A stretch of DNA of 30,614 nucleotides from a virus. Below the pieces are notes generated by a model that was not told the origin of the DNA, did no database searches, and was given only the letters and a program-made list of their open reading frames with translations. The stretch is from the IMG/VR virus record IMGVR_UViG_3300046449_000477, positions 1 through 30,614 of that record; one strand, given 5' to 3'. Positions within the stretch are counted from its first letter, which is position 1, and the number at the start of each line of letters is the position of its first letter. Below are positions 921-21,425 of the stretch, piece after piece. A program made the translations under genes and the position numbers.

Positions 921-930
921 TATAAATACA
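921..930 (+). promoter_or_regulatory. T4-late-like promoter box before lysozyme
   Basis: TATAAATACA matches the T4 late promoter core TATAAATA. It lies in the 53-bp divergent gap between the endonuclease VII gene and the lysozyme, 25 bp before the lysozyme start, leaving room for a short leader with GAGG at 943-946. No good -35 box precedes it. It is one of a series of such boxes in this window. Confidence 0.6.
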
Positions 931-954
931 TAAAACTATTTAGAGGAACCAAGG

Positions 955-1464
955 ATGGTGAACAGTGATAAAGCTAGTGATGTAGCTAGTAATATAACCA
1001 GTCGTTTAAGCAGTCGTAACGCGCTTAAAGAACGGATAAAACTAAACGAAGGAACTATTGAATATCAGCAGTACAAAGGCTTTTTCAGTGATGGTCATTT
1101 TCATTCATATAAATGTAGTGAGGGATTTACCACTATTGGATACGGGCATAGATGTGCTGATAACCAGCTACCAATAACGCCATTAGAAGCTGATGCTTTG
1201 TTAGATAAAGATATTGAAACGGCTAGGACATTAGCAGCCAAGATACACATAGATGAGTATCAAGTGGTTAATGATGTATTAATCGAGACAGTATTTCAGA
1301 TTGGCTATAACGGCTTATTGAAGTTCAAAAAAATGTTGCTTGCTTTGAAAGCAGGTGATTATGAAAAGGCGGCTTATGAAATGAAAAATAGTCGTTGGTA
1401 TAAACAAACACCTACGAGAGTACAGAAGCATATTGATGTGCTGTTAAGTGTTAAAGATAAGTAG
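955..1464 (+). CDS. T4-type lysozyme (GH24 endolysin)
   Basis: The 169-residue protein hydrolyses peptidoglycan glycan strands at the end of infection. It aligns with T4 lysozyme across its length. Glu32 in NEG matches catalytic Glu11. YKCSEGFTTIGYGH (52-65) matches the T4 stretch containing Asp20 and Thr26, with Cys54 in place of Asp20 and Thr60 in place of Thr26. SRWYKQTPTR near the end matches the T4 C-terminal motif. About 13 extra residues lie between the catalytic Glu and Cys. Cys at the Asp20 position is a recurrent variant (E-C-T triad) and is compatible with activity. There is no signal peptide, so a holin should release it; the hydrophobic protein encoded next is a candidate. GAGG lies eight bases before the ATG. 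Confidence 0.93.
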   Translation: MVNSDKASDVASNITSRLSSRNALKERIKLNEGTIEYQQYKGFFSDGHFHSYKCSEGFTTIGYGHRCADNQLPITPLEADALLDKDIETARTLAAKIHIDEYQVVNDVLIETVFQIGYNGLLKFKKMLLALKAGDYEKAAYEMKNSRWYKQTPTRVQKHIDVLLSVKDK

Positions 1465-1493
1465 GTAAGTAGGTAAAAAGACAAGGAGATGTC

Positions 1494-1694
1494 ATGGGAA
1501 CAATAATCGTACAAGGATTGTTAGCTGCATTAAAAAGTGTGTTATTAGCTGTTGCTAGTGAAGCATTGATTAAATGGGTAATCATTGAGCTAGCTGTTAT
1601 GGCTGCTAAATGTACTGCTACTACATTTGATGATGAACTAGTGCAGAAGATTAAAGCTGCATTAGAACAACGAAATCAACTAGAAGTTAAGTAA
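1494..1694 (+). CDS. Small hydrophobic protein of the lysis cassette, holin candidate
   Basis: The 66-residue protein starts at ATG with AAGGAG nine bases upstream and follows the lysozyme by 29 bp. Residues 4-40 form one or two hydrophobic helices broken by Lys and Glu. A charged tail after CTATTFDDELVQKIKAAL looks like an amphipathic helix exposed to the cytoplasm. Proteins of this shape (hydrophobic N-terminus, conserved DDEL-like motif, short helical tail) often sit beside phage lysozymes. Position and membrane character suggest a holin or lysis accessory, but no family-defining motif proves it. A strong terminator follows at 1725, so it closes the lysis operon. Confidence 0.7.
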   Translation: MGTIIVQGLLAALKSVLLAVASEALIKWVIIELAVMAAKCTATTFDDELVQKIKAALEQRNQLEVK

Positions 1695-1724
1695 CTAAAA
1701 GTAGAAGTAAGACTGAAGTTAAAG

Positions 1725-1748
1725 AGCCTAGCATTGCTGGGCTTTTTT
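1725..1748 (+). terminator. Rho-independent terminator of lysis operon
   Basis: AGCCTAGC (1725-1732) pairs with GCTGGGCT (1736-1743) around loop ATT, an 8-bp stem with one G-T pair, followed by a run of six T (1743-1748). It lies 31 bp after the stop of the small hydrophobic gene. Confidence 0.85.
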
Positions 1749-1780
1749 GTGACTCAAAAATGACGTATGAAAATGATTTG

Positions 1781-2124: not shown

Positions 2125-2302
2125 AGTTTACAAATCCAGAAATAATCACGAATCTGCTTATAAATCCAACAGAAATAGCTTAATAAAGCAGCGCGTAAAC
2201 TGATTAGGCGTAAACTCAAATGTGATATGCAGAAATCCAGCTATTACAGCCACAAAATAAACTGAAATGCTAAATACTACGTAAACTGAAAAACGAGTTT
2301 AC
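2125..2302. promoter_or_regulatory. Cluster of GTAAACT sites, operator candidate
   Basis: GTAAACT occurs forward at 2195-2201, 2210-2216 and 2281-2287, and as its complement AGTTTAC at 2125-2131 and 2296-2302. A near copy, ATAAACTGAAA, is at about 2257-2267. The last two exact sites form a perfect 7-bp inverted repeat with an 8-bp spacer, placed just upstream of the -10 box at 2316-2321, where a regulator would control RNA polymerase. The gene that follows encodes a protein with a possible helix-turn-helix, so autoregulation is a reasonable inference. Confidence 0.45.
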
Positions 2303-2312
2303 CACAATGGAA

Positions 2313-2352: not shown

Positions 2353-3063
2353 ATGTCTACACAAAGAACCACTAAGATTTACATCAACGACCAAGACACT
2401 ATTATCGGTCAATCAACCAAAAAAGCTGGCACTCTTTCAGGCTATGTTTATATCACTACTATTCTTGATGAAGAAGTTCCTGATCAAGTAGCTAAGTGCC
2501 AATATCGCATCACAACAACCACACCAGATACCAAAGTTCTTAATGATTGGGATTCAATGTTCAATGGTGCTGTTGAGTCATACAAGAAGCATTACTCAAA
2601 AAACTATGAGGGTGTATCAATCAAGTGCGGCAACATAGTTCAAGAGAGAAACTTACAGCTAGGCATTATGCGTGATGTGAATGTTGCTTGCTGGGTAGCT
2701 GCTTATGATCAAAACGTCATAGCATTTCAGATTCATTATCCGTCAGGTGCAATATTCCAATCACATGATGTAGCTATGAGTACTAATGCTAATGGTCAAC
2801 GCGAATGTGACATTGTTACTGCTACTAAGACAACATTCGATCCATCAATAAAAATGACTGTATTGAAAGGTGGTGAAAAGACACATAGACGTGAGGGATC
2901 TAAGTTATCGTTCAGTGATGAAGCTGAGATACTTCGCTGCTTACAGGACAAGAAAGCTGGGAAATCGAAAATCACTGGTGCATTGCTTGCGACACAATAT
3001 CAAGTATCAAAGATGGCGATTAGTAAGCTAAAGAGTCGCTTTGAAGCTGAGGGTAAGCTTTAA
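2353..3063 (+). CDS. Unknown protein with C-terminal helix-turn-helix-like segment
   Basis: The 236-residue protein begins at ATG six bases after AAGGAG (2341-2346). Residues 1-185 look like mixed alpha/beta with alternating polar strands and no motif I recognise. Residues 188-236 are different: SFSDEAEILRCLQDKK is a helix, then ITGALLATQYQVSKMAISKLKSRF has the spacing of a helix-turn-helix, with VSKMAISKLK as a recognition helix like those of homing-endonuclease-type and small-terminase-type HTHs. DNA binding is inferred, not shown. The gene has its own extended -10 promoter, a cluster of GTAAACT sites upstream and a terminator at 3238, so it is a single-gene unit. It could be a repressor, activator or replication-linked protein. 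Confidence 0.8.
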   Translation: MSTQRTTKIYINDQDTIIGQSTKKAGTLSGYVYITTILDEEVPDQVAKCQYRITTTTPDTKVLNDWDSMFNGAVESYKKHYSKNYEGVSIKCGNIVQERNLQLGIMRDVNVACWVAAYDQNVIAFQIHYPSGAIFQSHDVAMSTNANGQRECDIVTATKTTFDPSIKMTVLKGGEKTHRREGSKLSFSDEAEILRCLQDKKAGKSKITGALLATQYQVSKMAISKLKSRFEAEGKL

Positions 3064-3354: not shown

Positions 3355-3363
3355 CATAAATAC
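3355..3363 (+). promoter_or_regulatory. T4-late-like promoter box in degenerate cassette
   Basis: CATAAATAC lies 46 bp before the nuclease-like gene at 3410. The surrounding sequence (about 3322-3378: AGCCCGTTTGA, later the box, then GAAGAAAGG) is a diverged copy of the terminator-promoter cassette that recurs at 4066-4124 and 4577-4635. The terminator part here has lost its inverted-repeat symmetry. Confidence 0.5.
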
Positions 3364-3409: not shown

Positions 3410-4045
3410 ATGAACACAAGCAATAACACCAACACCAACACTTCAAAAAAACACTCATTAAAAAAGCCATTCAAGCTTAACAGAGCTACAAAGCTAACTT
3501 TCGATTATACGCCTAATAATAGTAAAGCTGGTTATAGCTACGAAGCGCGTACTGTAGCAAAGATTATCAAAAGCTATGGTGGACGTGCAGCTACATTAGA
3601 CGAGCAGTTAAAACAGGGCATTGACTACGTATCAGTTACTGGTGAAACGATTGATGTGAAACACCAGCCAAAAGCATTTATTCACGGCACTATCAACGTT
3701 GAGCTATTGGAATATAACACTGACGATCCAACCATTAATAACTTAGGCAGCTTCTTACATAGCAAAGCTGAAACTTATTATTGGTGTATACGTGATGATG
3801 AAGTTGAAGATGTACTTGTGTTCGATAAAGAAGCGCTGAAGCCATACATTGACCGAGTTATGAGCGGGGAAAGTATTGTAGGTTTTTTACTCAGTGAAAG
3901 TAATAGTCTTCACGCACGAAATGAATCACGCCAACACGGATCAAGTAAGTTCGATAACGCTGTTACATGTCGAGTAGATATTCATTTAGTGAAGCAGATT
4001 CAACGCGAATATGAAATGAAACAAGCTGGTATTAGTTTTAACTAA
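3410..4045 (+). CDS. PD-(D/E)XK-like nuclease candidate
   Basis: The 211-residue protein opens with a low-complexity Asn/Thr tail (1-15) and a basic stretch (13-30). Residues 43-84 then show a PD-(D/E)XK-like order: Glu45 in a helix (SYEARTVAKIIKSYG), Asp72 in GIDYV, and Asp82-x-Lys84 in TIDVKHQ, consistent with the metal-binding and catalytic residues of that fold. A later stretch, AETYYWCIRDDEVEDVLVFDKEALKPYI, resembles the strand-helix end of such cores. No close family is recognised and the Glu of the ExK motif is Asp here, so the assignment is tentative. It has its own promoter box and a terminator behind it (4073), so it behaves as a stand-alone moron-like unit. It might process phage DNA or attack foreign DNA. 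Confidence 0.65.
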   Translation: MNTSNNTNTNTSKKHSLKKPFKLNRATKLTFDYTPNNSKAGYSYEARTVAKIIKSYGGRAATLDEQLKQGIDYVSVTGETIDVKHQPKAFIHGTINVELLEYNTDDPTINNLGSFLHSKAETYYWCIRDDEVEDVLVFDKEALKPYIDRVMSGESIVGFLLSESNSLHARNESRQHGSSKFDNAVTCRVDIHLVKQIQREYEMKQAGISFN

Positions 4046-4072
4046 GTCTTGAACAGTACTAGTAAGAATATT

Positions 4073-4094
4073 AAGCCCGTTTGACAGGCTTTTT
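4073..4094 (+). terminator. Terminator of the nuclease-like gene
   Basis: AAGCC (4073-4077) pairs with GGCTT (4087-4091), followed by T to 4094. The inner C-A mismatch (4078/4086) weakens the stem compared with the sister copy at 4584. Confidence 0.65.
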
Positions 4095-4105
4095 GTTTAG
4101 AAACC

Positions 4106-4113
4106 CTAAATAC
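4106..4113 (+). promoter_or_regulatory. Late-like promoter box CTAAATAC
   Basis: CTAAATAC followed by ATATAAG lies 12 bp after the terminator T-run and 38 bp before the start at 4152. It differs from TATAAATA at the first two positions, but its context is duplicated exactly before the next gene, which argues for function. Confidence 0.45.
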
Positions 4114-4151
4114 ATATAAGAAAGCAACACTTACAAATAGCAGGTAATAAA

Positions 4152-4577
4152 ATGAATATGAATAAAAATGATGATGACAACGAAGTTACTATGGTAAAAG
4201 TCCAATGTGATAACGCTTACTATATTGGTTATTTAAAAGGCAGAATGTTACATAGAAGAAATATGCCAGCGTTTATTCAGCATTATGAAAGTGGACTAGT
4301 TAAAAGTGAATCGTGGTATATAAATGGAAAACTTCATAGATTAGATGCTCCTGCTGAGATCGAATATTATGAAAGTGGACTAGTTAAAAGTGAATCGTGG
4401 TATATAAATGGAACGCTTCATAGATTAAACGGTCCAGCTAAAGTTGAATATCAGGTTGATAACAGTATACATAAAGAATATTGGTATGTTGCAGGAAAGA
4501 AGCATAGATTGTTTGATCATACTGTTGATTATTCAAAGGTAATAAAGGTTGTAAGTGGTGTTTGGTTTGATGATTAG
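4152..4577 (+). CDS. MORN-like / YwqK-like repeat protein (141 aa)
   Basis: The protein consists of about four repeats of roughly 28 residues. The pattern is an aromatic-rich strand pair ending in xxGxxHR, then a Pro-Ala turn and YYESG. Two adjacent copies are almost identical (YYESGLVKSESWYINGxLHRL) and are visible as a DNA repeat of about 84 bp (around 4282-4365 and 4366-4449). The pattern resembles MORN-variant repeats (PF07661), also seen in so-called YwqK-family antitoxins, and probably forms a small beta-hairpin scaffold. Function is unknown. It lies between a late-like promoter and its own terminator and is related to the proteins at 5627 and, more distantly, 6867. Confidence 0.75.
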   Translation: MNMNKNDDDNEVTMVKVQCDNAYYIGYLKGRMLHRRNMPAFIQHYESGLVKSESWYINGKLHRLDAPAEIEYYESGLVKSESWYINGTLHRLNGPAKVEYQVDNSIHKEYWYVAGKKHRLFDHTVDYSKVIKVVSGVWFDD

Positions 4578-4583
4578 AATATT

Positions 4584-4605
4584 AAGCCCGTTTGACGGGC
4601 TTTTT
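4584..4605 (+). terminator. Terminator of the first MORN-like gene
   Basis: AAGCCCG (4584-4590) pairs with CGGGCTT (4596-4602) around loop TTTGA. The stem is perfect and is followed by T to 4605. Confidence 0.85.
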
Positions 4606-4616
4606 GTTTAGAAACC

Positions 4617-4624
4617 CTAAATAC
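4617..4624 (+). promoter_or_regulatory. Late-like promoter box CTAAATAC
   Basis: The same box and flanks as at 4106-4113, 45 bp before the gene at 4670, within the duplicated cassette. Confidence 0.45.
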
Positions 4625-4669
4625 ATATAAGAAAGGAAGCAACGTAAAAGCAGCATAAGGATATCAGGA

Positions 4670-4921
4670 ATGAACGCACAAGGTTTAAAACAATACCAGC
4701 AACACCAGCAACACAATGAAAACAAACAACTGACATTTGACGATCCAATATTAGGACGTGTTCCTGTTATTCATCTAACAACAATAAGTATTAACGAATA
4801 TCAACTAACACCATTTGAACCATTTGAAGTTACGAAAGAACTATCAGATTTAAGATTTAAACGTGTAGGCGATAATGTACAGGTTTTTAAACTATCAAAA
4901 ACACAAGTGGTTAACGACTAA
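4670..4921 (+). CDS. Small unknown protein (83 aa)
   Basis: The protein starts at ATG after AGGA and AAGGA motifs and begins with a Gln/His-rich stretch (about 8-20). Residues 21-83 look like a small beta domain (TFDDPILGRVPVIHL, then ITTISINEYQLTPFEPFEV). It has no membrane segment or catalytic motif I recognise. It is the first gene after the second terminator-promoter cassette and reads on into the genes at 4939, 5136 and 5627 without an intervening terminator, so it probably heads a short operon. Confidence 0.65.
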   Translation: MNAQGLKQYQQHQQHNENKQLTFDDPILGRVPVIHLTTISINEYQLTPFEPFEVTKELSDLRFKRVGDNVQVFKLSKTQVVND

Positions 4922-4938
4922 TAACTAAGGAGCAATGT

Positions 4939-5133
4939 ATGAAATGTTTAAATATAATAGATACACCTATGGTAATGATATCATTAATGTTCATGATGAG
5001 TGCTAGCTTATTTGGGCAATCAATAGTTTTTGAAAAGTTAAATACAATAGAACAAAATCAAATAGTAATAGCTAATAACTTGAAGATTAAACTTGATGTT
5101 ATTAGTGAAAATGTATGTAACGTAAAGGAGTAA
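4939..5133 (+). CDS. Small single-span membrane protein (64 aa)
   Basis: The start at ATG is set by TAAGGAG seven bases upstream. Residues 9-29 (about PMVMISLMFMMSASLFGQSIV) form one hydrophobic segment after a short N-terminus. The rest is a short helical, possibly coiled-coil tail (EKLNTIEQNQIVIANNLKIKLDVI). It lies two bases before the next gene, so the two are probably translated together. The shape fits a phage membrane protein of lysis, exclusion or host take-over type, but nothing decides between these. Confidence 0.65.
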   Translation: MKCLNIIDTPMVMISLMFMMSASLFGQSIVFEKLNTIEQNQIVIANNLKIKLDVISENVCNVKE

Positions 5134-5135
5134 TA

Positions 5136-5630
5136 ATGGGTGAGATGACTAAAACAATCACAGCTGACGATATATATAAAAAGTACTTTCTTACTAGTTT
5201 AAAGCGTAAAGTATTTGATGAAGTGTATGAAGCAATACAGAACAATCAATCAGTTGATACTAAGTCGTTAGTTGAACAATCAATACAAAAACATTCAACA
5301 CAATCAAACCACTCAAGTGTTAATACAGGTTATGGGTTGAATAGAGTGTTTATAACTGCAAGTATGTTAAAAAAAGCAACGTTTGAAGACACTCAAGCTG
5401 GTCAAGATCTTAATAGAATAGTCAGTGAAAAAGTTGATAGCTACAATAAACAACTACTAAACAACGACATATCAAATACATTAGATACTTTGATGTGCCT
5501 TATTGAAGTAGAAGACATATGTATAAAAACAAGTCGCTCTAGTATCAAAGATATAATCAATACTAGGTACTCTGATTTAGATGAAACAGATCAGTTTACC
5601 GTTACCTTAGCAACAGGATATCAAATATGA
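5136..5630 (+). CDS. Unknown helical protein with duplicated C-terminal motif (164 aa)
   Basis: The start at ATG follows AAAGGAG by six bases. The protein is predicted helical throughout, with a polar Gln/Ser/His-rich middle (about 40-65). Its end, YSDLDETDQFTVTLATGYQI, is shared with the pseudogene copy at 5963-6151, and in weaker form (YNELSEADQLAVTTATGY) with the protein at 6548, so these form a small family. The codons for the last residues include ACAGGATA, which provides the ribosome-binding site of the next gene, whose ATG overlaps this gene's TGA. No function is recognised. Confidence 0.7.
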   Translation: MGEMTKTITADDIYKKYFLTSLKRKVFDEVYEAIQNNQSVDTKSLVEQSIQKHSTQSNHSSVNTGYGLNRVFITASMLKKATFEDTQAGQDLNRIVSEKVDSYNKQLLNNDISNTLDTLMCLIEVEDICIKTSRSSIKDIINTRYSDLDETDQFTVTLATGYQI

Positions 5631-5962
5631 AAGCAACACTACTCACTTGGTATTACGAATCAGGTCAACTGAAAGAAGAAAAATATTGCGTTGATGGTAA
5701 AAGACATAGATTAGATGCTCCCGCAGTCACTAAGTATTACGAATCAGGTCAACTGAAAGAAGAAAGCTACTTTGTTGATGGTAAAATACATAGATTAGAT
5801 GCTCCCGCAGTCACTAAGTATTACGAATCAGGTCAACTGAAAGAAGAAAGCTATTGGGTTGATGGTAAAGACATAACTAACGAACTAACGAACGCGCACT
5901 ACTTCACATCACCACCTGAAATGAAAGCATTCATATTCTCAATGATGATGGCATCGGATTAG
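5627..5962 (+). CDS. MORN-like / YwqK-like repeat protein (111 aa)
   Basis: The ATG overlaps the stop of the previous gene (ATGA), implying translational coupling. Residues 1-85 are three near-identical 28-residue repeats (YYESGQLKEESYxVDGKxHRLDAPAVTK), encoded by an 84-bp tandem DNA repeat between about 5645 and 5875. The third repeat ends at VDGKD and lacks HR. A different tail follows (ITNELTNAHYFTSPPEMKAFIFSMMMASD). It is the same repeat type as the protein at 4152. After its TAG stop the frame stays open for 62 more codons through a duplicated piece of the preceding gene, so the present end may be recent. Function is unknown. Confidence 0.75.
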   Translation: MKATLLTWYYESGQLKEEKYCVDGKRHRLDAPAVTKYYESGQLKEESYFVDGKIHRLDAPAVTKYYESGQLKEESYWVDGKDITNELTNAHYFTSPPEMKAFIFSMMMASD

Positions 5963-6151
5963 AACAATAAACAACAACTAAACACCATACCAAATACATT
6001 AGATACTTTGATGTGCCTTATTGAAGTAGAAGACATATGTATAAAAACAAGTCGTTCTAGTATCAAAGATATAATCAATACTAGGTACTCTGAACTAGAT
6101 GAAACAGATCAGTTCACCGTTACATTAGCAACAGGATACAACAGTATATAA
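5963..6151 (+). pseudogene. Duplicated 3' end of the 5136 gene
   Basis: About 180 bp repeat the region near 5449-5625 with few changes. The frame encodes NTLDTLMCLIEVEDICIKTS and continues to LDETDQFTVTLATGYNSI before TAA at 6149-6151. There is no start codon with a ribosome-binding site; the only in-frame Met lies inside the conserved region. The frame is continuous with the upstream MORN-like gene across its TAG at 5960. It is best read as a gene fragment left by duplication or recombination, possibly expressed only if TAG is read through. Confidence 0.7.
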
Positions 6152-6180
6152 GACACTTATGTGAACTTAGTTTATCTATG

Positions 6181-6189
6181 TATAAATAA
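6181..6189 (+). promoter_or_regulatory. T4-late-like promoter box
   Basis: TATAAATAA lies 34 bp before the start at 6223, in a short gap after the pseudogene. It matches the T4 late core exactly. No -35 element is evident. Confidence 0.55.
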
Positions 6190-6222
6190 AAAGTAAGCAA
6201 TAACACACAAAAAGGATAAAAC

Positions 6223-6474
6223 ATGAACACAATCCAACATGAACAACAAACAACTCTAAGATACTATTTGAGAGATTATAATGAGTTAAACAAAATCAAC
6301 ACTAACCTAACTGTGTTGCCTTCTACTGATGTAACAGAACAACAAAATCAACTAAATGTATTGATGGATAAAATCAAAATATTAGTAGATGATTTAAACA
6401 CTACACGTGAATCATTAGGATTAGAAGAACTTGTTATCTATATACCTCAAATGGTATTGACGCGTATAAAGTAA
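6223..6474 (+). CDS. Small unknown helical protein (83 aa)
   Basis: The start at ATG follows AAAGGATA. The protein looks fully helical, with heptad-like spacing of Leu and Ile in LRYYLRDYNELNKINTNL and QLNVLMDKIKILVDDLNTT. There is no membrane span or motif. Its N-terminal part has a faint likeness to the start of the protein at 6548 (a Leu/Tyr pattern followed by ELNK), perhaps a shared origin. It is the first gene behind the late-like box at 6181. Confidence 0.6.
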   Translation: MNTIQHEQQTTLRYYLRDYNELNKINTNLTVLPSTDVTEQQNQLNVLMDKIKILVDDLNTTRESLGLEELVIYIPQMVLTRIK

Positions 6475-6521
6475 AATAACAGCAGTAACAACTAAGACTA
6501 AACAGACACTAGAAATAGAGT

Positions 6522-7145: not shown

Positions 7146-7149
7146 TAAT

Positions 7150-7996: not shown

Positions 7997-8032
7997 TAAC
8001 TAATAAGCACATACAAGGACAAGGAGTAATAG

Positions 8033-8393: not shown

Positions 8394-8404
8394 TTAAATA
8401 AATA
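8394..8404 (+). promoter_or_regulatory. Late-like promoter box before terminase
   Basis: TTAAATAAATA is a looser version of the late box, about 135 bp before the small terminase start and just before the G-run. It is the only such box in front of the packaging genes, but less certain than the exact TATAAATA copies. Confidence 0.35.
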
Positions 8405-8482
8405 ACATAGGGGGGTGGGTAAAGTTTAAAAACAAAACGTTTAAACAACGCACCGAAACCGATCTTAATAAATATTATTCCT

Positions 8483-8538: not shown

Positions 8539-8904
8539 ATGAAAAAACTTAAATGGCTGCCTAAGCCGTCTGAACAGTTTTACAAACAAGTATCAAAAAT
8601 CATCGAGGGTACTTATAGCGACACTGATGAGATTGATAATGTGTTGATGAGCATGTTAGCGATTGAGCTTAACGAGTATGTTCAAGCTATTAATGAACTT
8701 GAGATAAACGGTTCAACAATCACTGTTAAGGGCGCTAATGGTTACGAAGTAACAAAACAATCACCAGCAGTACAGACCAAACAAGCCGCATTTAAAAACA
8801 TCATCGAGCTATTAACCAAAACAGGTTTATTAAAAGATCCAATGTTTCGTGCTGGTGTTGCTAGTGCTGATGCTTTTACTGACTTCTTAAATGAGGATAT
8901 CTAA
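8539..8904 (+). CDS. Terminase small subunit, P27-like
   Basis: I chose ATG at 8539 because AAGGAGG (8528-8534) stands just upstream; an in-frame GTG at 8515 would place that site inside the gene. The 121-residue protein fits the P27-like small terminase family: a helical N-terminus, a helix around IELNEYVQAINELEING, a beta turn with NGYEVTKQSPAV, and a C-terminal helix pair ending in LLTKTGLLKDPMFRAG. It binds DNA near cos and recruits the large subunit. Its TAA stop overlaps the ATG of the large subunit by one base (TAATG), so the two are co-translated. The usual C-terminal Arg-rich end is reduced. Confidence 0.85.
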   Translation: MKKLKWLPKPSEQFYKQVSKIIEGTYSDTDEIDNVLMSMLAIELNEYVQAINELEINGSTITVKGANGYEVTKQSPAVQTKQAAFKNIIELLTKTGLLKDPMFRAGVASADAFTDFLNEDI

Positions 8905-10706
8905 TGAGCCTTAGCAGATATGAAATGCTGCTTGATGTTCATGGATTTAATACAAAGCTAAAAGATATACCAACAATACCCACACAAGATTATCGACAAG
9001 CATATCTCTATGCAGCAGACATTATCACTGGATATATCAATAGCAATAAGTACATCAAACTAGCATGTCAAAGATTTATAGATGATTTAAAAGCATCATC
9101 TGAACCTGATTTTAAATACATGTTCTCAACTAATAAAGCTCAGCGAATAGTTGATTTCTATAAGCACATGAAACACACAACAATGGACTTTTATGGCAAG
9201 CCATTTGAGCTTATGCCGTGGCAGATATTCATTGTTTCAAACATCATTGGATGGTTGAAAAAAGAACCACATCACCGCAGTAAAAAGCATGTAAGACGTT
9301 TTACAGAAGCACATCTTTGGGTAGCACGTAAGAATGGTAAATCAGCATTATCATCTGGTTTAGCATTGTATTTCTTCTTAGCTGATGGTGAGCGTGGAGC
9401 ACAGGTTTATTCAGTAGGGCCATCGCTTAGACAAGCAAAAATCGTATATGAGCAATCAACAGAACTCATTCAAACGATGCCTGTTAAGCACGATAAAGCA
9501 TTTAAAAAACGCTTTGATGGTATGCATTATTCGAACTCGAAATATCAGCCACTAGCTAACAACAGTTCAACACTTGATGGTTTATCAAGTCACTTAGTCG
9601 TATGTGATGAGATACATGAATGGACGGATAGAAACTTATACAACGTAATGAAAACAAGTACAGGCGCAAGGACTCAGCCGTTAATGCTCGTTATTAGTAC
9701 AGCAGGAACGATCCTAGATGGTATTGCTGTGGACTTGTATAAGCGCGGCCAGCGCATGTTAGACAAGGTTATTCAAGCTGATCATATGTTCACAATGATT
9801 TATGGGATTGATGAAGATGATGATTACTTTGATGAACATGTTTGGATTAAGGCAAACCCAACTTTAGGTCTGGTAAAAACATATGAAGAAATGCGAAAAG
9901 ACTCAGAAGCAGCACGCGATATGGTGTCGCAGAGGAATGATTATCTAACAAAGCATCTTAATGTGTTCTGTCACAGTGAAAAGGTGTGGTTAAAGAAACA
10001 AGATTTAGATAAATGCGTGGCAGATTTAGATTTTAATGCTGAGAAATACAAGCGTTATGACTGTTATATAGGCGTGGATTTAGCTCAAAAAATCGATTTA
10101 ACCGCTGTATCAGCAGTCTTCAAAGTGCCTGCTAGTGATACTGAATCGGGCAAGATTGAATATCATTTAATGCAAAAACATTACATAGCCCGTGGCGCTA
10201 TAAATAAAGCATCAGAACAAGTCCAAAATCTTTATCACACATGGAGCTTACAAGGTTACTTAGAGATAGTTGAGTCAACTATTACAGACTTTGATCTTGT
10301 GCGTGATTACATAGCTGATTTGAGTAAGAAGTATAACGTTATTGAAGTCGCATTCGATCCAGCACAAGGCAATCAGCTAATGAATGACTTGAGGAATAAA
10401 CACGGATTAACAGTAGTTGAAGTAAAACCAACACCAGTACAACTAAACGAACCTACTAAACGTGTAGAAGCGATGATTGTTGATAGTTGTATTAAATATA
10501 ACGGTGATAAGGTTTTTGAATATTGTTGCTCTAATGCGTTATTAAAAAATCATGCAAATAATATTGTCAGTGTTGTGAAAAATACTAATGAAGATAAAAC
10601 AGACAGTTTAATGGCGATGATTATTGCTGCATCACGTATTACAGAAGAATCAACTCAAAGCATATATGAAGATATGAAAGGTTTGGTATCTATAAGATAT
10701 AAATAA
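8904..10706 (+). CDS. terL: Terminase large subunit
   Basis: The 600-residue protein is the ATP-driven DNA packaging motor and headful or cos nuclease. The ATPase domain shows Walker A at about 140-147 (VARKNGKS), Walker B at 232-236 (VVCDE) and the coupling motif ISTAGT at about 258-264. The C-terminal RNase H-like nuclease shows three acidic positions: D392 in IGVDLAQ, D485 in AFDPAQG and D567 in DKTDSL. Length and motif order fit the HK97-type family that works with P27-like small subunits and HNH proteins, both encoded just upstream. The start overlaps the previous stop. The gene is followed after 12 bp by the portal. Confidence 0.97.
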   Translation: MSLSRYEMLLDVHGFNTKLKDIPTIPTQDYRQAYLYAADIITGYINSNKYIKLACQRFIDDLKASSEPDFKYMFSTNKAQRIVDFYKHMKHTTMDFYGKPFELMPWQIFIVSNIIGWLKKEPHHRSKKHVRRFTEAHLWVARKNGKSALSSGLALYFFLADGERGAQVYSVGPSLRQAKIVYEQSTELIQTMPVKHDKAFKKRFDGMHYSNSKYQPLANNSSTLDGLSSHLVVCDEIHEWTDRNLYNVMKTSTGARTQPLMLVISTAGTILDGIAVDLYKRGQRMLDKVIQADHMFTMIYGIDEDDDYFDEHVWIKANPTLGLVKTYEEMRKDSEAARDMVSQRNDYLTKHLNVFCHSEKVWLKKQDLDKCVADLDFNAEKYKRYDCYIGVDLAQKIDLTAVSAVFKVPASDTESGKIEYHLMQKHYIARGAINKASEQVQNLYHTWSLQGYLEIVESTITDFDLVRDYIADLSKKYNVIEVAFDPAQGNQLMNDLRNKHGLTVVEVKPTPVQLNEPTKRVEAMIVDSCIKYNGDKVFEYCCSNALLKNHANNIVSVVKNTNEDKTDSLMAMIIAASRITEESTQSIYEDMKGLVSIRYK

Positions 10707-10718
10707 CAGGAGAAAAAT

Positions 10719-11927
10719 ATGGAATGGATTCCAAGTTTTTTCAGAAAGAAAGAAAATACAAAGAGTAATGATAATAGCTTTAACGACCTAATGCGAAGAA
10801 TACGAAATCAAGGCAGTACTGCTTCATTAACTGAAATGGAAACTTTAGGGCTAAGCGATATTCTTGCTTGTATTAAAGTTAAATCAAACACTGTTAGTCA
10901 GTTACCTTTAAAAATGTTCAACATAACAAATGGCCGTGTTTTATTAAAAGCAAAAGATAACCCAACAGTAAACACATTAACAAAACGTCCTAATAACTAT
11001 CAAACAATGCATGATTTTATAAAAATGATGATTATGCATCTTGATGTTAGAGGTAACTTTTACGCTCTTATTACTCGTGATACTAGAGGTAATATTGTTG
11101 ATTTATTTCCAATACCACCAGATATCAGACCTCAAGTTGAGTTAGTTGATGACACGTTAATGTATCGCTTAGGTGCTAATGTTTATGATCAAAGTGAAAT
11201 ATTACATGTTAAAGATTTTAGTTTCGACAGTGTACGTGGACTAAATAACTTTGATGTAGCGTGTAACGTTATTAACTTGAACTACTACGCACGTAATCAC
11301 GGTATCAGTTTCTTCATGAATGGCAGTGCGCCAGCTGGTGTTATTACTACTGATAAAACTATGAGTAGAGAAGCACAAGTCGCGTTTCTTGAAAGCTGGG
11401 TGCAAACATACGGTGGTGCTGGTAATCACAATCGAACAGCGATGTTAGTTGATGGTGTTAAATACAGCCAAATAGGTACATCTAACGTTGATGCACAGTT
11501 TTTAGAAACTCGTAAGTATCAAAGAAGTGAGATAGCAGGTATTTTCTTAGTACCAGCATTCATGATTGGTGACTTGGAAAATGCTCATTTTAACAACATT
11601 GAATCACAAAACAGATTCTTCCATCAAACATGCATCGGGCCTCTACTTCAAAACATTGAAGAAAAGATTAATAGCATCTTACCTGACGGAATGGAAATCG
11701 AGTTCGATGACAAAATGTTCTTGCGTGGTGACGTTAAAACTCAAGCAGAAGTGCATAAAGCATACTTAGAAATGGGTGTTTATAGCGTTAACGAAATCCG
11801 TTCAGAAATCGGTGAAGAACACATTGAAGATGGTGATAAACGAGTTATTCAAACCAATAACATCACGTTCAACAATCCCTCTGAAGTACCTACGACAACT
11901 GAAAAACCACCTCTAACAAAACTATAA
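10719..11927 (+). CDS. HK97-family portal protein
   Basis: The 402-residue protein matches the HK97 portal family (PF04860). The characteristic N-terminal part reads SDILACIKVKSNTVSQLPLKMF and TKRPNNYQTMHDFIKMMIMHLDVRGNFYALI. The middle has GLNNFDVACNVINLNYYARNHGISFFMNGSAPAGVI, and the crown region EIAGIFLVPAFMIGDLENAHFNNIESQNRFFHQTCI. Portals form a twelve-subunit ring at one capsid vertex through which DNA passes. CAGGAG lies eight bases before the ATG. The last codons and stop overlap a TATAAATA box for the protease gene. Confidence 0.96.
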   Translation: MEWIPSFFRKKENTKSNDNSFNDLMRRIRNQGSTASLTEMETLGLSDILACIKVKSNTVSQLPLKMFNITNGRVLLKAKDNPTVNTLTKRPNNYQTMHDFIKMMIMHLDVRGNFYALITRDTRGNIVDLFPIPPDIRPQVELVDDTLMYRLGANVYDQSEILHVKDFSFDSVRGLNNFDVACNVINLNYYARNHGISFFMNGSAPAGVITTDKTMSREAQVAFLESWVQTYGGAGNHNRTAMLVDGVKYSQIGTSNVDAQFLETRKYQRSEIAGIFLVPAFMIGDLENAHFNNIESQNRFFHQTCIGPLLQNIEEKINSILPDGMEIEFDDKMFLRGDVKTQAEVHKAYLEMGVYSVNEIRSEIGEEHIEDGDKRVIQTNNITFNNPSEVPTTTEKPPLTKL

Positions 11928-11930
11928 ATA
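11923..11930 (+). promoter_or_regulatory. T4-late-like promoter box before protease
   Basis: TATAAATA followed by CA overlaps the portal stop codon (TAA, 11925-11927) and lies 35 bp before the protease start. A leader of about 30 nt with GAGG at 11957-11960 would result. Confidence 0.55.
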
Positions 11931-11965
11931 CAACATCAATCAATCACTATCAGGTAGAGGTGAGT

Positions 11966-12637
11966 ATGCAATATCGTGAATACGATCTTGATATTAAATC
12001 CGTTGATGAAAAAGGAATCATCGTTTGTTATGCGAATACATTTAACTATGTAGACAAAGCAAACGATGAAACGATTCAAGGAGCTTTCAAGAAAACAATA
12101 GCTGAACATACAGCTAAAGGCACTATGCCTAAAATGTTGTTTAACCATAATCGTAATGAACCAATCGGTAAATGGATATCGATGGAAGAAGATGAGTATG
12201 GTTTAAAAATGACTGGACAGTTAATACTAGAAGTTCAAAGAGCGCGTGAAATATATGCTTTATTAAAAGCAGATGCGATTAATGGATTTAGTATTGGTTA
12301 TACAGTTAAACAGCAACAATATGATCGTATAAATAAAATAACAAAGTTATTAGAAGTTGAACTAGGAGAAGTTTCTATTGTTCCATTTCCATGTAACGAC
12401 CAAAGCATATTAACAAGTATTAAAAGTATATTGGAAACAGGAGAGATTCCGCAGCCAAGTATTATTGAGAAAGAGTTAATAAGTCATTTCGGTTTAACTA
12501 AATCACAAGCATTAGCATTTATGTCTACTGGTTATAAAGGACTAAATACAACTGAAGAATATGAAGCTGAAAAGTCTATTAAAGAATCACAAGATGTAAA
12601 GCTAGATCAAATATTAGGACTATTCAAAAAGTCTTAA
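11966..12637 (+). CDS. Prohead protease, HK97 gp4-like (peptidase U35)
   Basis: I chose ATG at 11966, preceded by AGAGGTG; the in-frame GTG at 11960 would lie within that site. The 223-residue protein belongs to the HK97 prohead protease family (PF04586). Catalytic residues fit His61 (MLFNHN), Ser109 (NGFSIGY) and Glu135 (LGEVSIVP). It cleaves the delta domain from the major capsid protein during maturation and then itself. Residues 165-223 form a helical tail (KELISHFGLTKSQALAFMS) that may act as the scaffold-interacting part. The next gene encodes its substrate. Confidence 0.95.
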   Translation: MQYREYDLDIKSVDEKGIIVCYANTFNYVDKANDETIQGAFKKTIAEHTAKGTMPKMLFNHNRNEPIGKWISMEEDEYGLKMTGQLILEVQRAREIYALLKADAINGFSIGYTVKQQQYDRINKITKLLEVELGEVSIVPFPCNDQSILTSIKSILETGEIPQPSIIEKELISHFGLTKSQALAFMSTGYKGLNTTEEYEAEKSIKESQDVKLDQILGLFKKS

Positions 12638-12652
12638 ACACTTCTTTTATTT

Positions 12653-12660
12653 TATAAATA
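12653..12660 (+). promoter_or_regulatory. T4-late-like promoter box before major capsid gene
   Basis: TATAAATA followed by AATAAG lies 90 bp before the major capsid start, in the 113-bp gap after the protease. The long leader it creates contains the hairpin at 12682-12705. Confidence 0.6.
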
Positions 12661-12681
12661 AATAAGAACTAAGAAACCAAA

Positions 12682-12705
12682 TACGAATAGCGCGATGCGT
12701 TCGTA
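12682..12705 (+). promoter_or_regulatory. Leader hairpin of the major capsid mRNA
   Basis: TACGAA (12682-12687) pairs with TTCGTA (12700-12705). Inside, after a bulged TAG, CGC pairs with GCG around GAT. The nine base pairs lie in an unusually GC-rich leader (12690-12727) between promoter box and ribosome-binding site, with no T-run. It probably stabilises or protects the abundant capsid message. Confidence 0.4.
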
Positions 12706-12750
12706 CAGTCACGTCTGCGGGATGCGGATTAGAAGTAAAGGGAACTTACA

Positions 12751-14115
12751 ATGGACAAACTAGATTTAATCATTGATGCCGTTTCAGAAATGAAATCAGC
12801 ACAAGAACAAACACAAGTAAAAACTCAAGCTGATATTGAACAAGTTAAATCTGAAGCTCAAGAATCAGTTCAGCAAATAAAGTCAGATTTTGAAAATCGA
12901 CTTATTGCTGAAGTTAACGATATTAAATCTGTCGCCACGGATGGTGCAGAAAAAATCAAATCAGAAATGAAATCAGATATCGAAAACGTTAAATCCGAAA
13001 TCGATTCTGAAATCAACTCTATTAAATCAACAGTGCAAACACTGGACGCATTAGTTGCAAAACAAGGACGTAAAACAATGACTCAAAAAAATGTAGATGT
13101 TAAATCTCAAGTATTCAACGAAGCTATTCGTTCAGGTATTAAATCAGCAGCAGCTGGTGAAGCTTTCTTAGTAAAAGGTCTTAACACAGTTACCCAAGGT
13201 GACGGTGCTGAAACTGTATTAACTGACTTTGACTTAGCAGTTGTTGAACGTATGCGTTCACAAGGCGCGATGATTCGTGACATTGGTGTTCGCTCAGTAG
13301 CAAGTAAGCTATTTGAACGTTTCATTAAAACTAAAAACTCAGCTACTGCATGGGTTGATGAAGATGTTGCTAACTCTGGTATGGCTAATACTGCCGCTAC
13401 TCAACGCGCTCGTGTAGTTTGTACTACTGGTAAAGTTGCTGCTTATCCTTTCGTTACTCGCGAAGCTATTAATGATTCAAAAATCGACATTTTCGGTGAT
13501 TTAAAATCTGACGTTGCTAACCAAATCGGTCGTGCAGTACATGAAGCACTTGTTAAAGGTGTTACTGCTAACAAGCAACCAAAAGGTATTTTAGGTCATA
13601 TTGATGCTGTTGAATCTGCTAAATCAGATGATGCTCGTGACTTACGTTATTTCCAAGTAATCGAATCAAGTACTATTGGTAAAGTAGCTGCTGGTACTGG
13701 TGCTGCTTATGTTGGTGCTGTTCAAGACGCTATCTTAGCAATCATCGCTAGTGTTGATGCTGGTGCTCGTAAAGGTTGTAAGTTCTATGTGTCACAAAGC
13801 ATGTGGCTTGAGTTAATGAAACTACGTGATTTAGACGGTCGTTCATTACTATGTCCTGATGTTTCTGGTGCTGCTGCTGGTACTTTGTTTAACTTCCCAG
13901 TTGAAGTTGAATATCACTTAGGTGACGTTGTAACTGGTGCTGTTCCATTAGTGTTCGGTAACTTAGCTGAAGCTTTTGAGCTTTTATCAATCGGTGAATC
14001 ATTCACACAAGAAAACCCATATACAAATCCTGGCAACATCCAGTTGTATTATGAAACTCGTGTTGGAACGATCATGAAAGATAGTACTCAGTTGAAACTA
14101 TTCCGCATCAAGTAA
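12751..14115 (+). CDS. Major capsid protein, HK97 fold, with delta domain
   Basis: The 454-residue protein has an N-terminal scaffold (delta) domain of about 1-110 made of charged coiled-coil repeats (IEQVKSEAQESVQQIKSDF, DIENVKSEIDSEINSIKS). The HK97-type capsid domain (PF05065) follows, with GDGAETVLTDFDLAVVERMRSQ, WVDEDVANSG, YPFVTREAINDS and the ending YETRVGTIMKDSTQLKLFRIK. The protease upstream is expected to cut near residues 105-120. The cross-linking Lys of HK97 cannot be judged here. AAAGGGA precedes the ATG. The Ala/Gly/Val-rich, T-ending codon use in the capsid domain fits high expression. Confidence 0.96.
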   Translation: MDKLDLIIDAVSEMKSAQEQTQVKTQADIEQVKSEAQESVQQIKSDFENRLIAEVNDIKSVATDGAEKIKSEMKSDIENVKSEIDSEINSIKSTVQTLDALVAKQGRKTMTQKNVDVKSQVFNEAIRSGIKSAAAGEAFLVKGLNTVTQGDGAETVLTDFDLAVVERMRSQGAMIRDIGVRSVASKLFERFIKTKNSATAWVDEDVANSGMANTAATQRARVVCTTGKVAAYPFVTREAINDSKIDIFGDLKSDVANQIGRAVHEALVKGVTANKQPKGILGHIDAVESAKSDDARDLRYFQVIESSTIGKVAAGTGAAYVGAVQDAILAIIASVDAGARKGCKFYVSQSMWLELMKLRDLDGRSLLCPDVSGAAAGTLFNFPVEVEYHLGDVVTGAVPLVFGNLAEAFELLSIGESFTQENPYTNPGNIQLYYETRVGTIMKDSTQLKLFRIK

Positions 14116-16445: not shown

Positions 16446-16455
16446 CATAAATACA
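16446..16455 (+). promoter_or_regulatory. Late-like promoter box CATAAATACA
   Basis: CATAAATACA lies three bases after the stem-loop and 74 bp before the tail chaperone start. The leader has a 7-bp hairpin, AAAGCAA (16491-16497) with TTGCTTT (16512-16518), directly before the AGGAG site. Confidence 0.5.
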
Positions 16456-17363: not shown

Positions 17364-17387
17364 AAAGCCCTTCGGGGCTTTTTTTTT
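17364..17387 (+). terminator. Strong rho-independent terminator before tape measure
   Basis: AAAGCCC (17364-17370) pairs with GGGCTTT (17375-17381) around a TTCG tetraloop, with T to 17387. It should cut the late transcript between the tail chaperones and the tape measure gene. No clear TATAAATA box lies between it and 17433 (only TATAAAG at 17361, inside the terminator), so the tape measure probably depends on readthrough. Confidence 0.9.
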
Positions 17388-17432: not shown

Positions 17433-20228
17433 ATGTCAAATATAGCAACATTAAGCGTCAGCTTAGTAGCTAATACTGCTCGGTTTAGCCAAGCATTAGT
17501 ATCTGCAAGCTCAAGCGCAAAAAAACATTCAGGTGATATAGGTAAGCACTTATCTAATATTGGCTCAACTGCTGGTGGTGTAATGGCCGCTGGTGTCACA
17601 TTAGGACTTGGAGCTGTTACAGCGTTAGGTGCTGCTATTGTTGCTAATACAATAGATACCGCTAAAAACGTAAAAGAACAGGTTAACTTAGCACGACAAA
17701 TAGGCGTGAACGTTAACCAATACAGAGCACTAACAACTCAGTTAAGTACGTTCGGAGTATCAGCTGATGATGCTTATAGCGCATTAAAGGATTTGAACTT
17801 AAAGGTTAGTGAGTTAGCTATTACTGGTGGTGGTGCTTTTAAAGACTTCACAGATACAGTTAATGTTGATTTAAAAAGTTGGAACAGTAAGAGCGCGATT
17901 GAACAGTTATCGTTATTAGATGAAGCAACTTCAAAAATGTCTGACAACAACCGCAGACAGTTCGCAGATGCATTAGGTTCAGATGCATTGTTAAAAGTAT
18001 TAGACGCGCTTAAAGCTAGCGGTAAATCAGTGACTGAAGTTGTTGCTGATTACAAAGCTATGGGTGGTTTTGTTACTGATACTGACATTAGTTTATTAAG
18101 TTCAGCTTATGAAATGTGGACTAAGTTAGGCACACAAATAGGGATTATTCGTGAACGTTTCGCAGTAGCTTTCGCTCCAATGCTTGAGCCTATTATGAAA
18201 ATGGCTAGTGATTACTTAACAGAGATTGAAAGCAAAGAGGGCGGTCTAAGAAAGTGGGCTTTTGATTCAGCTAAAACAATGACTGAAGCAGTATTTGATG
18301 TGGCTGAGTTCTTAGTTACAACTTTCGGAAACATCTATAACGCTATCATAGGGGTTCACAATGCTTGGGCTAATATGCCTAATACTGATGCTGAACCTAT
18401 TAAGCTTGAGCTAACAACTGGTGATTTAGAGAAACAGTTAAAAGACCGTACTGATATGTTGGTTAATGCTGAACAGCGATTGCAAAAAGCACTTGATGCT
18501 AAAGCTGAGACTAACAAAGTCATTGAGAACTCAACATTTCCATCTATCCACAGTATGCGAAGTGAGGGTAATGATAAGGTTATTAGTAAATGGCAAGATG
18601 AAGTAAATGCAATAAAGTTAGAAGTCAGTAGTTTGCAAGGACAAATAGCAACATCTATTGATAGCGGTGCTCTTGGTGGTTTGAAAAGTGTTAGAGCTAG
18701 AACCAATAAGTTCTTAGATGATTTAAACAAAGATATAGATAATGTTCAAAGCAAGAAAGGAACAACTGATTTAGGCGCAACGACTAAAGGTAATGATTCT
18801 GGTTCTGCTGGTGGTACTGTTAATGGCACTGGTAGAAAAGATGCTTTGAGTGAATACAATGCAATCATTTCATCTGCTATAGGTGTGAATAAGACTATTG
18901 AGAATAGTTTTAATGAATCACAGTTAAAGCTTAATGAATACGTTAAAAATGGATATTTAACTCGTGATGAGTTTGATAAAGCTCAAGCTATTCTAACGAT
19001 TGATCGTGATAAGCAGTTGCTTGATACACGTATACAGAACTTGAATACATTAGGGCTAACTAGAGAAGCTAATACACTTCAATATCAATCTGAACTGGAT
19101 TACATCAACAAGCTTGAATCACTTAATGAGATTTCAAATGCTCAAGCTACTGAAGCTCGTATTGAGCTAGGGAATAAAGTAGCTGCTCAAGAACGTTCAT
19201 ACGCTCAAGAAAAAATCGAAAACCTTAATGCTGTCGGATTAGCTGATAAAGCTAGAACACTTCAAATGCAAAATGATCTACAGCTTATTTCTGATATGCA
19301 AGCTGAGGGGTTATTAACTGAGCAAGAAGCTAATGATGCTCGTGTTGAAATGGGTGAAGCGTTAGCACTTGAAAGGGCTAATACACTTGAAAGTATTGGG
19401 TTAGAAAGTGAAGCGTTAGCGATTAAGAATGAACTTGAAATGGAAAACTTGAAGCAGTTATATGATGACAAGTTAATCACTCAACAAGAATATCTTGATG
19501 CTAAAGCTGAAATGGAAAATGAGCATTTAGAAACACAACAAGAAGTATGGGTTGAGTCACTATCTGGCTTTCAAGAAGATATGTGGGGTATGTGGGAATC
19601 AATATCGTCAGGTGTCGCTGATAGTTTTACTAGCATGATGATGAATGGTGATGATTTTGGTAAATCAATGAAGAACGTCTTTAAACAAATGGCTGTTTCA
19701 TACGTAGCTGAAAAGATAAAGATGTTCTTGATTGATAAAATGTACGCAATGATTGCTGGTAAGTCTAACGCTCAAGCATCAGTAGCTAAAGGTACTGAGA
19801 AAGTCGCTGAGGCTGGATTAAATGCGTTAACTTCATTCGCTGCTGCTCCTTGGCCTATTAACTTAGGTGCTCCTGCGTTCTCTGCAATGATCAGTGGTTT
19901 AGCTGCTGGTTATGGAGCAACAATGACATCTGCTGCTGTATCTGGCGCGTCTGCTGTAGGTCAGTTCCATGACGGCGGTACTATTCCTTATGATGGTACT
20001 TTCTACTTACAAAAAGATGAAGTCGTTGTGCCACGTGCTAAAGGTGCTGCTGCTATTACAGCTCTTGAAAAGATTGATACTGCTACAGCGAAAACAGAAC
20101 AACCTACTCAACAACCCGTTAATGTGAACGTGACTATTACTGCTACAGATAGTAAATCATTCGTTGATCAAATGAACAATATTGAGGGGTATTTCAATCA
20201 AATGGTTTATAACGCTATTAATCAATAA
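17433..20228 (+). CDS. Tape measure protein (931 aa)
   Basis: It sets tail length and is ejected ahead of the DNA. Residues 1-45 start LSVSLVANTARFSQALVSASSSAKKH, the usual tape measure opening. Hydrophobic segments lie at about 48-72 (GGVMAAGVTLGLGAVTALGAAIVANTI) and near 800-850. Residues about 490-700 hold four imperfect helical repeats of 45-60 residues with the pattern LNxxGLxxxAxTLQxQxELxxIxxL and ITxQEAxxARxEL. The C-terminal FHDGGTIPYDGTFYLQKDEVVVPRA is the lambda gpH-type ending. AAGGAAG precedes the ATG. 931 residues would correspond to a tail of roughly 140 nm by the usual 1.5 Å per residue rule. Confidence 0.95.
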   Translation: MSNIATLSVSLVANTARFSQALVSASSSAKKHSGDIGKHLSNIGSTAGGVMAAGVTLGLGAVTALGAAIVANTIDTAKNVKEQVNLARQIGVNVNQYRALTTQLSTFGVSADDAYSALKDLNLKVSELAITGGGAFKDFTDTVNVDLKSWNSKSAIEQLSLLDEATSKMSDNNRRQFADALGSDALLKVLDALKASGKSVTEVVADYKAMGGFVTDTDISLLSSAYEMWTKLGTQIGIIRERFAVAFAPMLEPIMKMASDYLTEIESKEGGLRKWAFDSAKTMTEAVFDVAEFLVTTFGNIYNAIIGVHNAWANMPNTDAEPIKLELTTGDLEKQLKDRTDMLVNAEQRLQKALDAKAETNKVIENSTFPSIHSMRSEGNDKVISKWQDEVNAIKLEVSSLQGQIATSIDSGALGGLKSVRARTNKFLDDLNKDIDNVQSKKGTTDLGATTKGNDSGSAGGTVNGTGRKDALSEYNAIISSAIGVNKTIENSFNESQLKLNEYVKNGYLTRDEFDKAQAILTIDRDKQLLDTRIQNLNTLGLTREANTLQYQSELDYINKLESLNEISNAQATEARIELGNKVAAQERSYAQEKIENLNAVGLADKARTLQMQNDLQLISDMQAEGLLTEQEANDARVEMGEALALERANTLESIGLESEALAIKNELEMENLKQLYDDKLITQQEYLDAKAEMENEHLETQQEVWVESLSGFQEDMWGMWESISSGVADSFTSMMMNGDDFGKSMKNVFKQMAVSYVAEKIKMFLIDKMYAMIAGKSNAQASVAKGTEKVAEAGLNALTSFAAAPWPINLGAPAFSAMISGLAAGYGATMTSAAVSGASAVGQFHDGGTIPYDGTFYLQKDEVVVPRAKGAAAITALEKIDTATAKTEQPTQQPVNVNVTITATDSKSFVDQMNNIEGYFNQMVYNAINQ

Positions 20229-20260
20229 TCAATAATCAATAACCAACAAGTATCCAAACT

Positions 20261-20290
20261 AGGGTTAGCATTTGTGCTAGCCCTTTTTTT
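20261..20290 (+). terminator. Terminator after tape measure
   Basis: AGGGTTAGCA (20261-20270) pairs with TGCTAGCCCT (20275-20284, one G-T pair) around TTTG, followed by seven T to 20290. The last T is the first base of a TATAAATA promoter box. Confidence 0.9.
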
Positions 20291-20297
20291 ATAAATA
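20290..20297 (+). promoter_or_regulatory. T4-late-like promoter box fused to terminator
   Basis: TATAAATA, followed by CAACAAC, begins at the last T of the terminator tail and lies 19 bp before the start at 20317. Stopping and restarting transcription thus share one base. The leader holds AAAGGAGGGC. Confidence 0.6.
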
Positions 20298-20316
20298 CAA
20301 CAACAAAGGAGGGCAT

Positions 20317-20892
20317 ATGACCACATTTCCGTATAACCGCTGGGAAGATAAATCAGTATCAGTAAATGACGTTAACGATATTGATACAGATACAACTTTA
20401 AATGGGACAGTCGTTAGAAAAAACAACGGCTTCCAACAATACGAGTTCGAAGGAACTACATTACTTCAATCACAAAAAGAAGCTAAATCGCTTTATGCAT
20501 TCTTAGCAAGCAAGTCAGGTAACTATGAAAGCTTTAAGGTTCAAATACCATTAGGTTTACAGTTACTTGATAGCACACATCCTTTAACTGTAAATGTTAA
20601 AGAAACAACAGAAGCTGGTGAGACTTCAATAGCATTAGTCCCATCAAGTCAGCTTGAGAGTGGTACTTATTTTAACTTCAGTAACCACAGCAAACTCTAC
20701 ACAGTCATTTCACATGACACGTTAACAAGCGTATTAGTGATTCATCCTGCATTGCGTGTTGATGTTGATTCAACTACTTACGTTGATTTTGATGCACACA
20801 TATATGGATATCAAAAGTCTAATGAACTAGAGAGAGCACCACACACAGCTAACTATCAAAAGTTCAAACTTAAAATAATCGAGGACGTGTAA
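20317..20892 (+). CDS. Minor tail protein, distal tail type (191 aa)
   Basis: The protein begins MTTFPYNRWEDKSVSVNDVN and is beta-rich. A middle segment, TVNVKETTEAGETSIALVPSSQLESGTYFNFSNHSKLYTVISH, looks like the small beta insert seen in several phage minor tail proteins. Lying directly after the tape measure gene, it takes the place of lambda gpM, a tail-tip (distal tail) protein. I do not recognise close family motifs, so the exact role is by position. The stop overlaps the next start by one base (TAATG). Confidence 0.75.
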   Translation: MTTFPYNRWEDKSVSVNDVNDIDTDTTLNGTVVRKNNGFQQYEFEGTTLLQSQKEAKSLYAFLASKSGNYESFKVQIPLGLQLLDSTHPLTVNVKETTEAGETSIALVPSSQLESGTYFNFSNHSKLYTVISHDTLTSVLVIHPALRVDVDSTTYVDFDAHIYGYQKSNELERAPHTANYQKFKLKIIEDV

Positions 20893-21425
20893 TGGCACTA
20901 TCAAATGATTTAAATAAGAACACGTTAGAAGTTAACTTTTTGTTTGAAATCCATATCAAAGAACAAAGCTTTTACTACACAGATTGTCCTTTTGACTTAG
21001 TTGTTGATGAACAGCGATACAGCAGCTTAAACATTATTAAGAAGTTCGATAACGTAAAAGAGTCAGCAAAACTAGATAGTAAAGGAGTAAAGATTGTACT
21101 TGTTGGGTTAGATGAAACGATTCGAAACTTGTTTGTATCAACAGATGCTTTAAATAGCCAAATCAAGATAATCACAGCATTCAGACAAGGCAATAAAGTT
21201 ACTAGCATTTATAACTATTTTAACGGGTATGTGAAGACAGCTAAGTTCAAATCAGCCAAAAAAAGCGACTTAACAATCACTACAAGCACACAGCTTAATC
21301 TTGATTTTAAAGCTAGTTCACGTACGAACCATAGCGAACAAACATCACGTTACCCAAACGACAACTTCTATAAATACTCGACAATGACGGACATGGAAGT
21401 TAGCTGGAAAAAACAAAACACTTAA
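20892..21425 (+). CDS. Minor tail protein, L / DUF2163-like (177 aa)
   Basis: The protein opens with NTLEVNFLFEIHIKEQSFYYTDCPFDLVVDEQRYSSLN, continues with a beta domain (NLFVSTDALNSQIKIITAF, YNYFNGYVKTAKF), and ends with RYPNDNFYKYSTMTDMEVSWKK. That ending resembles the PxDxFFxxV...IxW close of several phage tail-tip (gp17/18, DUF1833/2163 or lambda L-like) proteins. In those the region often carries Cys residues for an iron-sulphur site, which are absent here. It is co-translated with the gene before. It most likely forms the tail hub ring on which J sits. Confidence 0.72.
   Translation: MALSNDLNKNTLEVNFLFEIHIKEQSFYYTDCPFDLVVDEQRYSSLNIIKKFDNVKESAKLDSKGVKIVLVGLDETIRNLFVSTDALNSQIKIITAFRQGNKVTSIYNYFNGYVKTAKFKSAKKSDLTITTSTQLNLDFKASSRTNHSEQTSRYPNDNFYKYSTMTDMEVSWKKQNT
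21369..21377 (+). promoter_or_regulatory. Late-like box inside the 20892 gene, before J
   Basis: TATAAATAC lies within the coding end of the previous gene, 134 bp before the J start. Coding constraint (FYKYS) could explain it by chance, so it is less certain than the intergenic boxes. Confidence 0.3.

Follow-up and report, generated by a model that had tools for sequence, protein, structure and literature searches.

In phage T4, the late promoters lack a -35 element and nine of them have A at -13; the late consensus of phage Aeh1 has a/gC at -13/-12 (PMC2988020). Phage CBB encodes a gp55-like factor and has 35 ATAAATA sites before its structural genes, gp33 and gp45 not being found there (PMC5259590). 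Phage rV5 has a T4-late-like motif (TggTAaAAtA) without homologues of gp55, gp33 or gp45 (PMC3606486); hence, gp55 is not needed for such a motif. No paper on siphoviruses with T4-type late promoters was found among the open texts searched.

The window analysed here is the whole of the IMG/VR virus record IMGVR_UViG_3300046449_000477, a linear stretch of 30,614 bases with 63% AT and an A-rich coding strand. Nearly all of its genes lie on the plus strand, in the order lysozyme (955), a run of small genes (3410-8263), terminase small and large subunits, portal, HK97-type protease, major capsid, connectors, major tail protein, tape measure, distal tail protein and a 2907-aa J-like tail protein; the minus strand carries only the endonuclease VII gene. 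The structural genes form a lambda/HK97-type siphovirus module and not a T4-type one, as the window holds an HK97-type protease and capsid with a siphovirus tape measure and tail proteins, and no T4-superfamily capsid, portal or contractile-tail genes. In a tblastn search of the phage collection, the only matches of endonuclease VII were gp49 records of the T4-like phage Acj61, and the nearest matches of the lysozyme are tail lysozymes from jumbo phages of the T4 superfamily, GAP32 among them.

Some features of the small-gene region may be recorded separately. Part of the 3' end of gene 5136-5630 (about 5486-5630) is repeated in the gap at 5963-6222. The proteins encoded at 4152-4577 and 5627-5962 consist of tandem repeats (YYESGxxKxExWYxxGKxHRLDAPA) that look YwqK/MORN-like, and the former has no Pfam match. 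The structure models of ORFs 2353 and 5136 were of too low confidence for use, except for a likely C-terminal helix-turn-helix in 2353.

The initial annotation had proposed a T4-like late promoter array on this module, with TATAAATA in the gaps at 921, 6181, 11923, 12653 and 20290, CATAAATAC at 3355 and 16446, and CTAAATAC at 4106 and 4617. All of these copies are present, that at 11923 overlapping the portal stop codon, and the observation holds in a fuller form; the annotation had missed the AATAAATA copies at 8397 and 8467, the sites at 10698 (portal) and 21369 (long tail-fibre gene), and the antisense TCTAAATA. The sites are collected in the table. A T4-like late promoter array serving an HK97-type structural module is well supported: the sites are enriched, lie on the expected strand and at the expected positions, vary as known late promoters do, have no -35 and are in part fused to terminators, and the comparison with T4 and GAP32 agrees.

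Table. Putative late promoters of the window and the genes that bear on them
Feature	Position	Strand	Basis
Endonuclease VII, T4 gp49 type	419..901	-	phrog_423 1.4e-19; PF02945 1.8e-10
TATAAATAC, late-promoter-like, serving lysozyme 955 and 1494	921..929	+	
TCTAAATA, sole antisense [AC]TAAATA of the window, 43 nt 5' of endonuclease VII ATG (901)	937..944	-	
GCTAAATAC, weak candidate, gene 2353 (also with TGTTATAAT extended -10, about 2313-2321)	2269..2277	+	
CATAAATAC, gene 3410	3355..3363	+	
Terminator + CCTAAATAC (4105-4113) cassette, gene 4152	4067..4124	+	
Duplicate terminator + CCTAAATAC (4616-4624) cassette, genes 4670-5962	4578..4635	+	
TATAAATA, gene 6223 and those after it	6181..6188	+	
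AATAAATA, A at -13 variant, terminase unit	8397..8404	+	
AATAAATA, A at -13 variant, terminase small + large subunit unit	8467..8474	+	
TerL, portal, HK97 protease, major capsid (module served by the sites)	8904..14115	+	PHROGs
TATAAATA at TerL end, 21 nt 5' of portal 10719	10698..10705	+	
TATAAATAC, head maturation protease 11960; overlaps portal stop codon	11923..11931	+	
TATAAATAAATA, two overlapping sites, major capsid 12751	12653..12664	+	
CATAAATAC straight after long hairpin, gene 16530	16446..16454	+	
Tape measure gene; terminator 17364-17381, without late-promoter-like site (main gap in the array)	17433..20228	+	
TATAAATAC fused to terminator T-tract, distal tail protein 20317	20290..20298	+	
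TATAAATAC, 143 nt 5' of tail-fibre J-like gene 21512	21369..21377	+	

The motif is concentrated on one strand and in the gaps. Over the whole window, TATAAATA occurs 10 times on the plus strand and never on the minus strand, the copies beyond those already annotated being at 10199, 10698, 12328, 14982 and 21369. Six copies lie in gap DNA against 0.34 expected, and this value was reached in none of 2000 dinucleotide shuffles. The same holds for ATAAATA (11 observed, 1.4 expected) and [CT]ATAAATAC (5 observed, 0.1 expected), with 0/2000 shuffles reaching the observed value in each case. By contrast, CTAAATAC alone is not significantly enriched over the window (4 observed, 2.1 expected), and its copies at 4106 and 4617 count as one event since both belong to one duplicated 58-bp cassette. 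When all 7-mers upstream of ORFs were ranked with no motif preset, ATAAATA came first and TAAATAC second; moreover, the pattern is not dredged, because the motif, that of T4, had been named in advance.

Sense [AC]TAAATA is found 7 times in coding DNA, which is at the synonymous-codon expectation (10.7). Internal copies such as those at 10199, 12328 and 14982 may therefore have no promoter role and are not claimed as promoters. On the antisense strand the motif is rarer in coding DNA than expected (0 observed, 5.0 expected, P 0.003).

Position gives a further measure. With gene starts preceded by a gap taken as candidate transcription-unit starts (n = 17), and [A/C]TAAATA taken as the range of known gp55-promoter variants, a plus-strand copy lies 18-150 nt 5' of 13 of the 17, whereas 2000 shuffles gave a mean of 1.5 and a maximum of 5, and antisense copies in those regions number zero. 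The antisense TCTAAATA at 944-937 precedes the sole minus-strand gene and forms a divergent pair with the lysozyme site at 921. In the aligned sites, information content by position is strong only across the 8-9 bases of the element, with no -35, as had been noted before, and no other conserved upstream position; the earlier remark that most sites continue as ACA or ACT is roughly right, position 9 being C in 10 of 13. Variants of the element are AATAAATA at 8397, 8467 and 12657, and xCTAAATA at 2269, 4105, 4616 and antisense 944; the former corresponds to A at -13 in T4 and the latter to a/gC at -13/-12 in Aeh1 (PMC2988020). Sites directly follow a hairpin or terminator at 4105, 4616, 16446 and 20290, which bears out the statement that several do so. 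The two copies of the terminator-promoter cassette differ by one mismatch, and each stands before a different small gene.

From these features we infer that the sites are promoters and, more weakly, that the factor reading them is a gp55 homologue. Taken together, the array is probably a phage sigma-factor-dependent set of late promoters working as in T4, with a gp55-like protein as its most likely reader. The element [T/C/A/x][A/C]TAAATA(C) would be the sole conserved part of about 13 late promoters plus one divergent, each driving a short late transcription unit that is often closed by its own intrinsic terminator. The reader would be a sigma factor without -35 contact, acting on the host RNA polymerase like gp55 of T4; its gene most likely lies in the portion of the genome not yet sequenced, and late transcription may perhaps be coupled to replication via a sliding clamp. 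The flanking of the array by genes with T4-superfamily relatives, namely endonuclease VII and the GAP32-like lysozyme, counts for this explanation; the lack of a sigma factor in the window, the absence of the array in relatives and the tape-measure unit without a site count against it.

A gp55-type sigma factor is the simplest model for the reader of the sites. Profile searches detected no gp55-like or sigma region-2 protein in the 30.6-kb fragment or the partial duplicate record, the same profiles had no match in the relatives, and a general family scan of window proteins gave no match to gp33 or gp45. In a tblastn search with gp55, the phage matches listed, a sample of the full set, were in records of at least 141 kb, except for two short T4 entries; an HK97-type siphovirus with a gp55-type factor would therefore be new relative to these matches. 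The chances are about even that this is a lambda/HK97-type siphovirus outside the T4 superfamily which, instead of a single antiterminated late operon, uses a gp55-like sigma factor, possibly clamp-coupled, and a full array of about 14 late promoters of the T4 type. An array read by a phage factor unrelated to gp55, such as another sigma factor or a modified or phage polymerase, and convergent on a -10-like element, is unlikely. It would accord with rV5, for which no homologues of gp55, gp33 and gp45 are reported (PMC3606486), and with the failure to see gp55 in the window; however, the sites agree closely with those of T4 and GAP32, also in their variants, and the array adjoins genes with affinity to the T4 superfamily.

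Host promoters account for the sites even less readily. TATAAA matches TATAAT at 5/6 positions, so that weak reading by host sigma70, aided by an activator from the phage or by an extended -10, is conceivable, but TATAAT itself is depleted in coding DNA on both strands (5 vs 14.7 and 6 vs 19.2 expected) and is without strand bias (7 and 6 copies). Conservation, moreover, spans 8-9 bases and takes in the A at position 8 and the C at position 9, there is no box further upstream, and none of the sigma70-like -35/-10 pairs, which the initial annotation had named as a competing account of the starts, coincides with a late-type site. Sigma70 boxes are thus a quite improbable source of the array. Such pairs number 26 in the window against 77 expected, and are undepleted in sk1 (75 vs 68 expected) and T4 (61 vs 69 expected). 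The window looks purged of host promoters, with late sites apparently retained at unit starts. On both strands TATAAT and these pairs are strongly depleted, more so than in sk1 or T4, which would fit selection against host promoters. ORF 2353 (2353-3063), a 236-aa orphan, may be an early regulator because it combines a likely C-terminal helix-turn-helix with a sigma70-type TGTTATAAT. Finally, AT-rich composition or leader bias without promoter function is already nearly refuted and very improbable, since, for all the AT content and A-rich coding strand of the window, the enrichment is not reproduced by shuffled sequence, antisense copies are missing from the same regions, and the AT-matched siphophages sk1 and phi11 (both 65.5% AT) have ATAAATA upstream of 0 and 6.6% of their genes.

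Apart from a 100% identical partial copy, no relative closer than about 36% TerL identity was found. From viral contigs, TerL and the major capsid protein retrieved that copy and a relative at 30%, the capsid protein had no match in genome contigs, and a TerL profile gave 80 loci with identities of at most 36%. The exact promoter cassette, the left end and endonuclease VII recovered no close relatives, and the right end recovered only the same phage. IMGVR_UViG_3300046534_001113 is this phage in another assembly (100% identity over 12.8 kb), and extends the right end by about 232 bases, in which lie a terminator and the beginning of another small gene. In the distant relatives examined (about 30-35% TerL and about 24% capsid identity), the array is absent and no gp55 was detected. 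If the favored reading is true, a strategy of late transcription can travel separately from the genes for capsid and tail, and the phage would offer a small natural system for asking how far gp55, gp33 and the clamp are required.

Among known systems, Vibrio phage K396 and other lambda/HK97-type relatives share the order of terminase, portal, protease and capsid with this phage, but have only about 35% TerL identity and no ATAAATA array. K396 has another intergenic motif, ATAGTTAT, enriched 5' of genes (e.g. 6389, 6420, 18591, 41647, 43416, 43450); it occurs on both strands, often paired, and may be an operator or a further promoter element specific to that phage. Like this phage, rV5 has a T4-late-like motif 5' of late genes, although its motif is more degenerate, no gp55/gp33/gp45 homologues are reported, and it is a myovirus. 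In the share of genes that have ATAAATA in the 110 nt ahead of them, the window (26%) falls with the T4 late region (28%) and gp55-bearing GAP32 (31%), whereas sk1, phi11, Mcat17, fEg-Aba01, K396 and GJ44 reach 0-7%; the remaining loci of the screen, which are for the most part HK97-type relatives and in general less rich in AT, reach at most 10% with a median of 0. Similarly, ATAAATA is the top upstream 7-mer in GAP32 and the second in T4, and is not the top one in any of those six phages. GAP32 and CBB differ from this phage in being myoviruses of more than 350 kb with a T4-type capsid and sheath; they are alike in having ATAAATA ahead of structural genes at a similar frequency, and GAP32 further has endonuclease VII, a gp55-like sigma factor and the best match to the lysozyme found here. 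Unlike in T4, the sites serve an HK97/lambda-type siphovirus module, C stands at position 9 in most of them, and gp55, gp33 and gp45 are not seen in this 30.6-kb fragment. In common with T4 are the 8-bp TATAAATA element, the lack of a -35, the many short units and the endonuclease VII gene. Terminators also directly precede the promoters of T4 genes 9 and 19, as at several sites here, and the sites of both phages lie 20-45 nt, or in some cases about 80-140 nt, from the start codon (22-36, 81 and 142 nt in T4; 21-42, 98 and 143 nt here).
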